Part shown: piece after piece, positions 22,867 through 26,714 of the stretch
How the letters are laid out: every line of letters begins with the position of its first letter
Numbering within the stretch: position 1 is the stretch's first letter
Origin: a virus
Virus record (IMG/VR): IMGVR_UViG_3300032086_001528
Location: 1 to 26,714 of that record
Length of the DNA stretch: 26,714 nt
Reading direction: 5' to 3' (one strand)
Position numbers and translations under genes: made by a program
Notes under the pieces: generated by a model
The model's database searches: none
Seen by the model: the letters and a program-made list of their open reading frames with translations, nothing else
Told to the model about the DNA's origin: nothing

Positions 22867-23066
22867 TGTGTTACTAGATTGGATACGGTGTTAGCAAGGC
22901 AGAAGTTCTGCTTCTGCAACGCAAGAAAGATAGTGATGATGTCTTTCTTATCTGCTTCGGGAAGAAGATCCTCAAGCCTGCGTAGCTTGAAGCTCTGCTC
23001 CATCGTCAGATCTGTCACTGGCATCGGTGGGACACCAGGGTATGACTGATTGTTTGTCGAAGTCAT
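22827..23066 (-). CDS. nblA: Probable NblA-like phycobilisome degradation adaptor
   Basis: This 79-aa protein has a disordered N-terminus (about 19 residues, Pro-rich) followed by DLTMEQSFKLRRLEDLLPEA and a second helix DKKDIITIFLALQKQNFCLA with an amphipathic tail. The LTxEQxFxLR opening followed by a helix-turn-helix of about 60 residues is the hallmark arrangement of NblA (PF04485). NblA binds phycobiliproteins and brings them to the ClpC protease, dismantling the light-harvesting antenna. Known freshwater cyanophages carry nblA, and a marine phage form has been reported. The start could be 23066, 23024 or 23003; all lie within the end of the exonuclease gene, giving up to 95 nt of overlap. 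I rate family membership likely but unproven without a profile search. Confidence 0.65.
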   Translation of the reverse strand: MTSTNNQSYPGVPPMPVTDLTMEQSFKLRRLEDLLPEADKKDIITIFLALQKQNFCLANTVSNLVTQWPNHPSTTPEVK

Positions 23067-23742
23067 ATTCTTTGTTGGTAAGAATCTTTGCTAGTCGTGC
23101 ATTGATAAGTGCGTCGTCTTCAGTCAAGTCTTTGTCTGTGAACGCTTTAACTACTGTGTTCCAGCAGTAATCACACTCATCAAACAATGCAACAGCTCGC
23201 TTGATTCCAATACCAGGCACGCCGCTGTAGCCATCGGTCTGGTCACCAGCAAGTGTCTGAATTAGGTGCCATTGCCTGCCTTCTTCTTCAGTAATCTCGA
23301 CAAGCTCGTCCATGTTGAACAACTTGCCAGGGATTTGGCGCATGTCTTTGTCAGGAGAGACGATGACATTGCCTGGGTTGGCAGTGGCATAGATACCCAT
23401 GGCATCATCAGCTTCCAGCGTTGGCATACGAATAACTTCGTACTGCTTTGCTAGTTCTGAAATTACACGCCTGTAACCACAAGGCTTCTTTCTATTTCGA
23501 TGACCCTTGTAACTTGGATAAATTTTTTTCCTGAAATTTACAGAGTCACTAAAAAAGAGGATCATCTCCGGTACATCCCACATGAAGTGACCTTTGATCT
23601 TGGTCAGCTCACGTTGGACGTTTGTCATCGCCTCACTGAACTTGCTGACGACCATGATGACGTCGTCACCCCAGTCAATGTCTGTCTCAGCGCCTGCACA
23701 GGATTTATAGACAATGAAGTCAGCATCAATGAGTAGTTTCAT
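22972..23742 (-). CDS. 5'-3' exonuclease (T7 gp6-like, FEN/PIN family)
   Basis: This 256-aa nuclease shows the family acidic residues in order: MKLLIDADFIVY at the N-terminus, the basic arch region YPSYKGHRNRKK, EADDAMGIYA, VSPDKDMRQIPG, and AGDQTDGYSGVPGIGIKRAV with the helix-3-turn-helix DNA-binding loop. Gene 6 of T7 removes RNA primers and degrades host DNA to supply nucleotides. It directly follows the polymerase gene with an ATGA overlap, as in the T7 gene order. The C-terminal 30 residues are rich in Asp/Ala/Thr and overlap the NblA-like gene in another frame. Confidence 0.95.
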   Translation of the reverse strand: MKLLIDADFIVYKSCAGAETDIDWGDDVIMVVSKFSEAMTNVQRELTKIKGHFMWDVPEMILFFSDSVNFRKKIYPSYKGHRNRKKPCGYRRVISELAKQYEVIRMPTLEADDAMGIYATANPGNVIVSPDKDMRQIPGKLFNMDELVEITEEEGRQWHLIQTLAGDQTDGYSGVPGIGIKRAVALFDECDYCWNTVVKAFTDKDLTEDDALINARLAKILTNKEYDFDKQSVIPWCPTDASDRSDDGAELQATQA

Positions 23743-25010
23743 CAGTGGACCTCCGCCCAGTTCTTCCCTTGTTTCGCTTCTGCTGCGATTGGGACTCGTA
23801 GTTTGTAGTACTCGCCAGCCGCTGCAGCGCTATATACCAGGGATGCTGATAGGTCGTCTGCGTGGTCAGGGTGGCATTCAAATTGCAATTCGTCATGTAC
23901 AAAAGCAAGCTGTGCACAGCACAACTTTGTTGATTCAATAGTTTGTTGATTGATAAGCATCCACCGCTTCGCAACGGTGCCGGCTCCTGACTGGAGCAAG
24001 TAGTTCAAAGCTTTGTGAGGGCTGTCTAGAAGGATCTTGCGACCGTCTATCGATCGGACAAAGCCCTTCTCAGACGCCTTTTTAATTGCCTCAAGTAGTT
24101 CCGACAGTCCATCAATAGCAGATACAAACGCTTCCCTGATTTCCTTACCTTTAATCTTAGCGGTACGATCATTTAGGGAAGAGTCATAGGAATGACCGAT
24201 TTTGGCGTCACCTGCTCCATAGATGAAGGCGTAGGTAATAGTTTTGATTTGCCGCCTAGAAACTCCAACCCGGTCAGCATTCTGTTGATGGATGTCACCG
24301 TTGAGGAGAGTGTCGGCAAAAGACTCAGACCACCGGCCAAGATAATGACCAAGCATCCTGAGTTCAATACCTGCAAGATCAGCACCAACCATAATTTGAC
24401 CTGGCGAGGCTGTGAAGAGTTCTCTGAATTCATGATTACTGGGTACTTGCGCGAGATTTGGTTTGCGATGTGCACATCTGTGCGTGTTTGTAGCAACTGA
24501 ACAATGATGATGAATACGATTAGCACTCGTACATAGCTTCAGCCATGCGTTCGTGCCTTCCGAGATCATCCCCAATTTCTTTGTAATATCGAGACACTTC
24601 AGAAAATCCATAGCAATCGGTGTCCCAATATCCTTGAGAATCACTTCGTCGATGATGGGCTTCCCAGTAGGACTCATCTCCGTTGGATTCCAACCATGAA
24701 ATGTTTGCAGGATCCATGAAATATGGTCGCGAGAGGTCGGGTTTAGTTCTTTCAGTTTGGTGAAGGTACATCCCTCAACGTATCCTGATGTTTTGTTATT
24801 TCGTTTAGGAGTAAATTCCGATCCTTTAACGAAAGGGTGCCTGTTACGTAGTAGCTCACAAGTTTGCTCAAGCTCTCCTCTGAGAGTTGATGCAAGTTGC
24901 CATGCAGCCTTTGTGTCAAAGTGCCATCCATGTAGTTCTTGTGTAGTTAGTATTTGTGCAACGTCGTGCTCTAACGCGACCCAATCAGGTAGGGGTGGAA
25001 GTGATCGCAT
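23742..25010 (-). CDS. DNA polymerase, family A polymerase domain (C-terminal half of a split T7 gp5-like enzyme)
   Basis: This 422-aa ORF carries the thumb, palm and fingers of a T7-like polymerase. Motif A is VGADLAGIELRMLGHYL (catalytic D211), the O-helix motif B is RRQIKTITYAFIYGAG (R252, K256, Y260, Y264) and motif C is AFVHDELQFEC (H372, D373, E374), so the active site is complete. Tyr260 is at the T7 Tyr526 position that allows dideoxynucleotide use. The region corresponding to the thioredoxin-binding insertion in the thumb is only about half the T7 length. It lacks an exonuclease domain, which is in the upstream ORF. The ATG lies inside the last 40 nt of that ORF, in the -1 frame. Confidence 0.93.
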   Translation of the reverse strand: MRSLPPLPDWVALEHDVAQILTTQELHGWHFDTKAAWQLASTLRGELEQTCELLRNRHPFVKGSEFTPKRNNKTSGYVEGCTFTKLKELNPTSRDHISWILQTFHGWNPTEMSPTGKPIIDEVILKDIGTPIAMDFLKCLDITKKLGMISEGTNAWLKLCTSANRIHHHCSVATNTHRCAHRKPNLAQVPSNHEFRELFTASPGQIMVGADLAGIELRMLGHYLGRWSESFADTLLNGDIHQQNADRVGVSRRQIKTITYAFIYGAGDAKIGHSYDSSLNDRTAKIKGKEIREAFVSAIDGLSELLEAIKKASEKGFVRSIDGRKILLDSPHKALNYLLQSGAGTVAKRWMLINQQTIESTKLCCAQLAFVHDELQFECHPDHADDLSASLVYSAAAAGEYYKLRVPIAAEAKQGKNWAEVH

Positions 25011-25513
25011 AGTTTTTTGGTAACGTTTACATCTTGTATGCAGTAGTCCTGCATATCTTGTGACCAGCTTTGCCAGTCAGTGTCTTTCCCGAATTGACCT
25101 TTGAACTCACTTAGTCGGTAGCCATAGCTCTCAAGACTGTGACGCCCCCACATGTATGAAGGCATGTTCTTCCAACGACCTACAAACTTGCCGTCTTTAG
25201 TCTTTGGACCACGGTCAGTGTCAAGAATGTCTGTGTGATAGAGCCTAGACAACAACAATGTGTCTACAACCAAGGCGGTTGGCTCGAACCACGCATAGAT
25301 CTTTTTAAGGACAGGTATGTCATAACCGATGACATTATGTCCGCAGATAGTTTCTGCCTCTTGGAGGATTTGTACACCACGGACAATAGGTTCCTGATCA
25401 CCTTCGTCGTTGTAGACAAGGGTTTGGTCAGTCTCCGTGTCGTAGATGACAAGACAGTGAATACGGGTAACATCATCTAGAAGACCGTCACTTTCCAGGT
25501 CGAATACCAGCAT
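24971..25513 (-). CDS. DNA polymerase 3'-5' proofreading exonuclease domain (N-terminal half of a split T7 gp5-like enzyme)
   Basis: The 180-aa product aligns with residues 1 to about 190 of T7 DNA polymerase. The proofreading carboxylates are retained: MLVFDLESDG (D5, E7, the same numbering as T7), GHNVIGYDIPVL (D65) and DYCIQDVNVTK (D161). It ends HFHPYLIGSR and then stops, while the polymerase continues in the -1 frame from an ATG 40 nt earlier. A single extra base near 24975 would give a continuous sequence HPYLIGS.ALEHD that matches normal polymerases. So this is a genuine split, a programmed frameshift, or a one-base sequencing or assembly error. The start gives the conserved first residue of the family. 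Confidence 0.9.
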   Translation of the reverse strand: MLVFDLESDGLLDDVTRIHCLVIYDTETDQTLVYNDEGDQEPIVRGVQILQEAETICGHNVIGYDIPVLKKIYAWFEPTALVVDTLLLSRLYHTDILDTDRGPKTKDGKFVGRWKNMPSYMWGRHSLESYGYRLSEFKGQFGKDTDWQSWSQDMQDYCIQDVNVTKKLCDHFHPYLIGSR

Positions 25514-25581: not shown

Positions 25582-26714
25582 TTAGAAATCGGTAGTTGCG
25601 TCGAACTCTGATTCGATTGCAGTTTCATTAAATTTGCAGGTAGATAAGTCGTAAGTCAGTTTTGAGGCGACGCCAACTTCGCCTGAATAACGATTTTTAA
25701 GCACTCGCACAGTCGTAGCACTTCCATCTTTGTCGGATTGTTGATCTCGTTCCAATCCAATGACCGCGTCGCTGAGTTGAGCGATTGCAGCAGATCCGCG
25801 CAGTTGTCCGAGCGTAACTCGTGCACCTTCTTCATGATTAACATCTCCTGATGTTCTTCGTAAATGTGAAACTAGAAAGAGTGATATGCCTGTTCTTTCA
25901 ACCAATGACCTCAAGCGAGTCATTGTGTTGTCAATCATCCGGCGTTCGTCGCCGTCAAGGCCAGACAGCAAAATAGACAGGTGATCAAGGAAAACAACAC
26001 GGGTTTCAAGAGCAGACGCCATGTACTCGATCCGGTTGTAGATGTGATCCGGGTCATACGATCCGAAGCCATCAAATAGGTGGAGATTCCACGTTGCGAT
26101 GGTTTCATCGAACGCTTTAACTAGCTCAGATCGATCATGTTCTCCAAGGTGGAGACTTCGTCCTGTTGCTGCGGACATAAGTCCGAGAGCTGTACGACGG
26201 TTTGATTCTTCAAGTGCCAAATAACCGACCCGTTCTCCTTTGTTAAGAAGGTGAGTTGCAAGGTCACGACAGAAGGACGATTTTCCAATACCACTTCCTG
26301 CAGTAATTGTGACAAGCTCTCCGTACCGGATCCCGTGAAGCTTTTGTTGTAGTCCTTGAAAGGGGTAGTCATGATCTGAGGGTGGTGTTGGTGTTGTGAC
26401 GAGTTCAAGTAGTTGTTTTGCGTCAACAATCCCGTCTGGTTTGTACTGTTCGTGTTCAAAACTCAGAAGATTACGAATGGCCTCTGAATCTTTAGCTTGT
26501 AAAGCTTCTGAGGCATCCTTGTAATCGGCTAGAAAACCTATGAAAGCTTTGCCAGGTGGTAACACCCCGGCAGCTTCAATTGCAGCCTCTCTACCCGGTT
26601 TATCGTTATCGAAGAAAAGGATTACTTTGTCGAAACTTGTGATGTAATCGAAGTTGTCCTGCATCGCTTTCTTTGCAGATGCAGCACCATTCGGAATCGA
26701 AGTGATTGCGTAGT
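25582..26714 (-). CDS. Primase/helicase, C-terminal part (T7 gp4-like), partial
   Basis: The reading frame is open to the right edge (the residues upstream of the first internal Met, AITSIPNGASAKKA, match T7 gp4), so only the N-terminal zinc-binding and primase part is missing. Visible parts are the end of the TOPRIM domain (VILFFDNDKPGREAA), the RecA-like helicase core with Walker A (TAGSGIGKSSF), the catalytic EES motif, Walker B (VVFLDHLSILLSG), the motif 3 region (ISLFLVSHLRR) and the H4-type GQLRGSAAIAQLSD. The protein unwinds DNA and primes the lagging strand. The C-terminus is acidic and ends DATTDF, like T7 NDTDF, whose terminal Phe contacts the polymerase. It is followed by a 68-bp gap and the polymerase exonuclease ORF. 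Confidence 0.97.
   Translation of the reverse strand, partial: YAITSIPNGAASAKKAMQDNFDYITSFDKVILFFDNDKPGREAAIEAAGVLPPGKAFIGFLADYKDASEALQAKDSEAIRNLLSFEHEQYKPDGIVDAKQLLELVTTPTPPSDHDYPFQGLQQKLHGIRYGELVTITAGSGIGKSSFCRDLATHLLNKGERVGYLALEESNRRTALGLMSAATGRSLHLGEHDRSELVKAFDETIATWNLHLFDGFGSYDPDHIYNRIEYMASALETRVVFLDHLSILLSGLDGDERRMIDNTMTRLRSLVERTGISLFLVSHLRRTSGDVNHEEGARVTLGQLRGSAAIAQLSDAVIGLERDQQSDKDGSATTVRVLKNRYSGEVGVASKLTYDLSTCKFNETAIESEFDATTDF

Follow-up and report, generated by a model that had tools for sequence, protein, structure and literature searches.

The split of the DNA polymerase in clade-B cyanopodoviruses is already on record in database entries, which treat it in different ways. The S-TIP37 record notes that 'The DNA polymerase may be translated in two frames. 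This may be a split variant or a frameshift', and the P-SSP7 record that its product 'may be a split variant of DNA polymerase, or a programmed ...'; the records of S-SBP1, DSL-LC07, and 7B11-B plainly annotate a DnaQ-like exonuclease plus a polymerase, while those of KBS-P-1A, S-RIP2, and S-RIP1 leave the split unannotated. One article states, with reference to the genome paper of Sullivan and others from 2005, that proteomics 'confirmed' the P-SSP7 enzyme to have 'a putative frameshift' or to be 'a split variant' (PMC3350473), by which wording both readings stay open for that phage. The part that appears to have been overlooked consists of two further candidate proteins, deduced from the comparison of sequences, in the polymerase half.

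We analyzed a stretch of 26,714 bases—hereafter the window—comprising the virus record IMGVR_UViG_3300032086_001528. The phage is a relative of Synechococcus phage S-TIP37, the two polymerases being 89% identical and sister to each other in the polymerase tree with a support of 100/100. As in P-SSP7 (PSSP7_017A/017B) and S-TIP37 (STIP37_17A/17B), the enzyme lies in two ORFs with a 40-nt overlap in the -1 frame and with the same gene order, between the primase/helicase and the gp6-like exonuclease, as is proper to the clade-B split polymerase; those two records differ in leaving the mechanism open and the nested ORFs described below unannotated, though both phages have them. A first-pass annotation of the window had reported the overlap, whose coordinates (Table 1) proved exact and whose arrangement is repeated in 192 distinct loci, and had offered three readings of it: two separate subunits, a programmed -1 frameshift, or a sequencing or assembly indel.

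Residues 1-170 of the exonuclease align to residues 1-183 of the T7 DNA polymerase, and residues 11-69 plus 74-422 of the polymerase to the remainder of that enzyme; the break therefore falls in the inter-domain linker. The polymerase domain is thus of the T7-type family A by the DNA_pol_A profile and by homology to T7, but the enzyme departs from the single chain of that type in having two ORFs in different frames. Between the halves the window holds no intervening insert of the kind that would mark a polymerase interrupted by an intron or intein.

Table 1. Positions of the features in the window and in the related sequences that are discussed
Feature	Sequence	Position	Strand	Basis or remark
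DnaQ-like 3'-5' exonuclease subunit, 180 aa	Window	24971..25513	(-)	ATG; T7 polymerase residues 1-183, E 1.1e-20; PF13482; PHROG 17/403
Family-A DNA polymerase subunit, 422 aa, lacking the exonuclease domain	Window	23742..25010	(-)	ATG; PF00476 E 8.5e-37; T7 polymerase E 6.4e-48
Overlap of both ORFs, 40 nt, polymerase in the -1 frame	Window	24971..25010	(-)	ORF list
Polymerase ATG start codon	Window	25008..25010	(-)	Homologous start in 192/192 loci: 168 ATG, 24 TTG
A6 run, proposed slip site, not conserved	Window	25013..25018	(-)	Exonuclease codons AAA-AAA; 37/170 loci
Nested ORF1, 59 aa, in the +1 frame relative to the polymerase, beginning at its codon 27	Window	24752..24931	(-)	Openness in relatives; third-position constraint
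Nested ORF2, 65 aa, in the +2 frame relative to the polymerase, over its codons ~98-163	Window	24520..24717	(-)	Constraint over polymerase codons 141-162
Primase/helicase, upstream neighbor, truncated by the window end	Window	25582..26714	(-)	ORF list and PHROG
5'-3' exonuclease (T7 gp6-like), downstream neighbor	Window	22972..23742	(-)	One-base overlap with polymerase stop
Insert ORF	L145	3477-3782		HNH-type motifs; Pfam HNH above cut-off
Insert ORF	L207	2062-2523		Weak sub-threshold NinG match only; HNH by our own reading of motifs
C5 cytosine methylase gene	L200	1687-2526		PF00145 E 9e-50; exactly between exonuclease and polymerase, slight overlap with both
PCR pol gene records of S-CBP3 and S-CBP1	L162 (EF535233), L179 (EF535232)			Compared with L178, L180; one extra base gives a continuous ORF
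Sister-group contigs, up to 82 kb	L248, L250-L251, L254-L255, L258-L259, L342-L415			Split, varied spacing; small ORF between halves in some

Recurrence and ancestry of the split

The sequence set comprised 416 members, including the window, from five protein scans of viral contigs and from phage records, of which we removed 57 duplicates, 11 members without a usable exonuclease, and 4 without a polymerase. The polymerase is split in 197 of the 199 distinct clade-B loci, which come from isolates, fosmids, and metagenomes, with cultured phages sequenced by different groups among them. The -1 overlap is present in 192 loci (the window included), the genes are separate in 4, and 1 (P-GSP1) has more frame breaks, the other 2 being single-ORF PCR records. 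The split thus recurs among the related cyanopodoviruses, which was the check that the first-pass annotation had proposed. The enzyme is fused in 75/75 members of clade A (Syn5, P60, S-CBP2, and their kin, with T7 counted in) and split in 70/70 members of a third, sister group having no close cultured member (best match to a phage record, 47%), in which group the distance from the exonuclease stop to the aligned polymerase ranges from -17 to +952 nt. A glutamine riboswitch was observed in four of the seven members of the sister group that were scanned. Further apparent frame breaks within the exonuclease or the polymerase, possibly sequencing errors, were seen in P-GSP1 (L172), S-RIP1 (L164), NATL2A-133 (L165), and GU943068 (L176).

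The tree, built from 76 polymerase domains, has a single branch (99/94) that parts the fused from the split rows, and all 200 bootstrap trees recover that partition. The direction from fused to split is likely, with other readings being possible, since the T7 branch is long. Comparison of the loci within the clade shows the split to be of long standing, stable, and inherited, with a separate start codon retained for the polymerase and a separate stop for the exonuclease.

Two proteins or a frameshifted chain

The homologous polymerase start is kept in every one of the overlapping loci, and the exonuclease stop follows it by 34-52 nt in all 192, by exactly 40 nt in 170. That start spans a leucine codon of the exonuclease, which in 188/188 cases is CTA, TTA, or CTT, these being the leucine choices that give ATG or TTG with the TG that follows; the share of CTA plus TTA in this column is 0.87, as against 0.04-0.47 in ten other conserved leucine columns. 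Moreover, a comparison of synonymous sites indicated that both frames are constrained within the overlap. Upstream of the polymerase start a motif resembling the Shine–Dalgarno sequence was found in none of the 170 loci with an overlap of exactly 40 nt, and upstream of the exonuclease start in 5/114. The lysine codon preceding the polymerase start is AAA in 176 and AAG in 9 of 185 loci, compared with 882 to 688 (56% AAA) elsewhere. Polymerase initiation is therefore probably independent of a Shine–Dalgarno motif and may be coupled to the translation of the exonuclease.

Four clade-B relatives, scattered over the tree, have the two genes either separated or sharing one frame with the stop between them. 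L145 and L207, belonging to two separate clade-B lineages, carry an inserted ORF between the exonuclease and the polymerase, and L200 carries a methylase gene there; in L146 the polymerase ATG lies 3 nt past the exonuclease stop in the same frame, so that a -1 shift cannot join the two genes. No Rfam intron family was matched in the 11 loci with a separated or odd arrangement, and we rejected an interrupting intron on that ground.

Because the start codon is kept, the slip site is not conserved, and the genes are naturally separated in relatives, the comparison argues strongly that the proofreading and the polymerizing halves of this T7-type DNA polymerase are two genes and two proteins in this phage and throughout its clade; of the three original readings, that of two separate subunits is thus the one that fits best.

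The P-SSP7 and S-TIP37 records leave room for another outcome, in which programmed -1 frameshifting, at AAA-AAA or at another place in the overlap, would yield a fused exonuclease-polymerase chain. In favor of that possibility, the two frames stand in the relation that a -1 shift requires, and the relatives keep the overlap. Furthermore, the A6 run noticed in the first pass is indeed present in the window just ahead of the ATG, where the -1 frame is open, so that a -1 slip would formally join the frames; the enrichment of AAA before the start can likewise be read in favor of slippage. Nevertheless, among the 170 loci with an overlap of exactly 40 nt the A6 run occurs in 37 and a canonical X_XXY_YYZ heptamer ahead of the 0-frame stop in only 4, which rarity led us to reject either one as a general mechanism, while a stop in the polymerase frame lies one or two codons ahead of the start in 53. 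Nor did third-position change reveal a conserved nucleotide element just downstream, since in polymerase codons 14-25 that change is at the baseline (0.297 vs 0.300). The four relatives with genes apart or in frame behind a stop and the varied spacing in the sister group likewise speak against such a mechanism, under which, in addition, the conserved polymerase start codon would be superfluous. We therefore consider frameshifting quite improbable, and the proposal of slippage at the A6 is not supported, though a minor frameshift product is possible in those phages that have the run.

An error of sequencing or assembly in one genome—suggested by the observation, made by eye in the first pass, that the reading becomes continuous with one extra base in the overlap, as well as by the PCR records of S-CBP1 and S-CBP3, which read through and in the overlap are one base longer than the same phages' genomes while otherwise identical—has practically no chance of being correct, in view of the recurrence in 197/199 clade-B loci of the diverse origins given above, the constraint on both frames in the overlap, and the contradiction of both single-gene records, which look to have been joined in deposition, by the genomes of their own phages.

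An indel may nonetheless account for the geometry, as a mutation of ancient date rather than an error. Arising in a fused ancestor, within the linker that joins the domains, it would have put the halves out of frame, whereupon an out-of-frame ATG 40 nt ahead of the new stop could have become the polymerase start. By eye both frames resemble the fused linkers, so that we place the indel no more closely than within the linker. The polymerase would now be started independently from an A-rich leader devoid of a Shine–Dalgarno motif, probably with the aid of ribosomes crossing the exonuclease gene, and the two chains would come together again as a proofreading polymerase with no covalent bond between them.

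Reading frames nested in the polymerase gene

During the search for a frameshift signal we found synonymous sites to be constrained not only in the overlap, as expected, but also over the polymerase codons ~26-78 and ~141-163. These segments correspond to two ORFs that lie within the polymerase ORF in other frames (Table 1) and had escaped the first-pass annotation. In the relatives ORF1 likewise starts at polymerase codon 27 in the +1 frame, mostly has 50-73 aa, and is open for at least 50 aa in 158/164 clade-B polymerase genes, compared with 23% in synonymous shuffles, a null that is liberal because it ignores shared descent. It is absent only from the 9515-10a branch (L155, L166, L240, L241, L245) and from L238; among the 164 its start varies, with an ATG one codon later in four rows and another codon in three. 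ORF2, in the +2 frame, has ~65 aa and ends at codon ~163, with an ATG and at least 55 aa in 130/164; in the window a second in-frame ATG lies upstream of its start, at 24771.

The +1 frame was also poor in stops relative to synonymous shuffles at polymerase codons 191-260, 281-320, and 381-420 (window 23751-24440), without constraint at the third positions. Stop depletion was therefore rejected as a proof in itself, since at codons 191-260 and 281-320 it occurs in the absence of constraint, and the argument for the nested ORFs rests on the change by codon position, which we measured in independent pairs with polymerase codons 164-422 as the baseline. Over codons 27-78, in the clade-B phages having ORF1, the third-position differences per codon were 0.149 vs 0.300, a ratio of 0.50; the corresponding ratio was 0.97 in the sister group and 0.78 in clade A (p 3e-7, the chi-square values being a guide only because codons are treated as independent), which mild drop in a lineage other than clade B limits how firmly ORF1 can be classed as an overprinted gene. 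Clade-B phages lacking ORF1 provided 2 pairs only, too few to weigh. The first positions of the polymerase were not reduced over ORF1 (0.139 vs 0.122), as expected if these are the third positions of ORF1. Over codons 141-162, at the end of ORF2, the phages having that ORF gave 0.099 vs 0.293, a ratio of 0.34, whereas the ratio was 0.96 in the clade-B phages with ORF1 but without ORF2, 0.81 in clade A, and 0.77 in the sister group, the latter two being milder drops that count against the coding reading. Here the change is lowered at positions 1 and 3 but not at position 2 (pos2/pos1 1.52 vs 0.58), again as expected if the second positions are the third positions of ORF2. Conserved ORFs in alternative frames, with a frame-specific constraint that tracks their presence, are what overprinted genes would leave, and both ORFs show this pattern, which is weaker over the first 40 codons of ORF2. 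An all-lineage scan of the antisense and the alternative forward frames gave no run of at least 40 codons open in nearly all relatives; by that criterion ORF1 and ORF2 are missed too, both emerging only when lineages without them are allowed for.

The constraint might alternatively reflect RNA or DNA elements within the polymerase gene, such as a promoter or a processing site, rather than proteins; the confinement of the ORF2 constraint to its end and the putative nature of both products are compatible with such elements. The codon-position pattern, however, agrees with the frames, the change over ORF1 being halved at polymerase position 3 and unreduced at position 1, and the ORF2 signal vanishes (0.96) in the clade-B relatives having ORF1 without ORF2, so that we regard this alternative as unlikely.

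On the tree, with 58 clade-B rows scored, the presence of ORF1 requires 1 change and that of ORF2 requires 5. Both ORFs are found in P-SSP7, S-TIP37, S-SBP1, KBS-P-1A, S-B28, NATL1A-7, S-RIP1, and 7B11-B, and also in the separated variants L146, L200, and L207. A tblastn search with the ORF1 consensus retrieved 40 phage records, all from cyanophages or uncultured marine phages, all with a split polymerase, and none from clade A. Of these 40, GU943054 gives ORF1 and, next to it, ORF2 as hypothetical proteins, and GU943068 has a hypothetical CDS at the place of ORF2; a limited search of the open literature for genes that overlap or lie nested, whether in cyanophages or in the polymerase genes of phages, gave no report of these ORFs. 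No homologue of known function was found for either one, the Pfam and PHROG matches of ORF1 being weak (phrog_1095, 3/39 members, best E 0.0009). The predicted structure of ORF1 has three helices at a modest confidence (pLDDT 70), with which model Foldseek returned nothing below E 3.7, and the prediction for ORF2 was poor (pLDDT 57), giving no usable model.

ORF1 and ORF2 thus appear to be coding, as candidate proteins whose status rests on the frame-specific constraint. We consider it probable that the polymerase gene is coded in all three forward frames, having gained ORF1 by overprinting on one branch after the split and ORF2 later, each in one of its two other frames, and that both persisted while the clade radiated and went unnoticed in the members brought into culture. 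Their location in the replication operon prompts the best guess, made with low confidence, of a role in replication—perhaps as helpers or regulators of the replicase—or in host takeover.

Significance and relation to known polymerases

The split-or-frameshift question posed in the P-SSP7 and S-TIP37 records can now be weighed, and the comparison points to two proteins, by which reading the clade would offer a natural two-chain T7-type replicase with proofreading and synthesis separable. The nested ORFs, moreover, would furnish in a phage a succession of stages in which genes are born by overprinting, from the fused enzyme to the split one, then with ORF1 added and finally ORF2, and they are carried by the laboratory members P-SSP7 and S-TIP37. 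The DNA polymerase gene is a marker for counting these phages in the sea (PMC9381782). That part of this marker gene is seemingly constrained by two further genes would affect the polymerase-based estimates of diversity.

With the polymerases of T7 and of clade A (Syn5/P60-type) the window enzyme shares the same two domains, in the same order and with homologous sequence, but those polymerases are single chains. In the alignment to T7 the clade-B enzyme also lacks most of the segment of T7 residues ~262 to ~311 (window 24789-24827, polymerase residues ~62-74), where the thioredoxin-binding loop of T7 lies; the clade-B processivity factor may accordingly differ. A two-chain replicative polymerase is found as well in some T4-related Aeromonas phages, as gp43A/gp43B, which resembles the window in that respect and differs in being of family B and in having another break point. 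Finally, in the MEP401-type OM43 phages a family-A polymerase likewise lies in two ORFs across a phage group, but there a small ORF, which may be an intron, makes the break within the polymerase domain itself, whereas in the window it falls between the domains and the ORFs overlap (PMC10580990).
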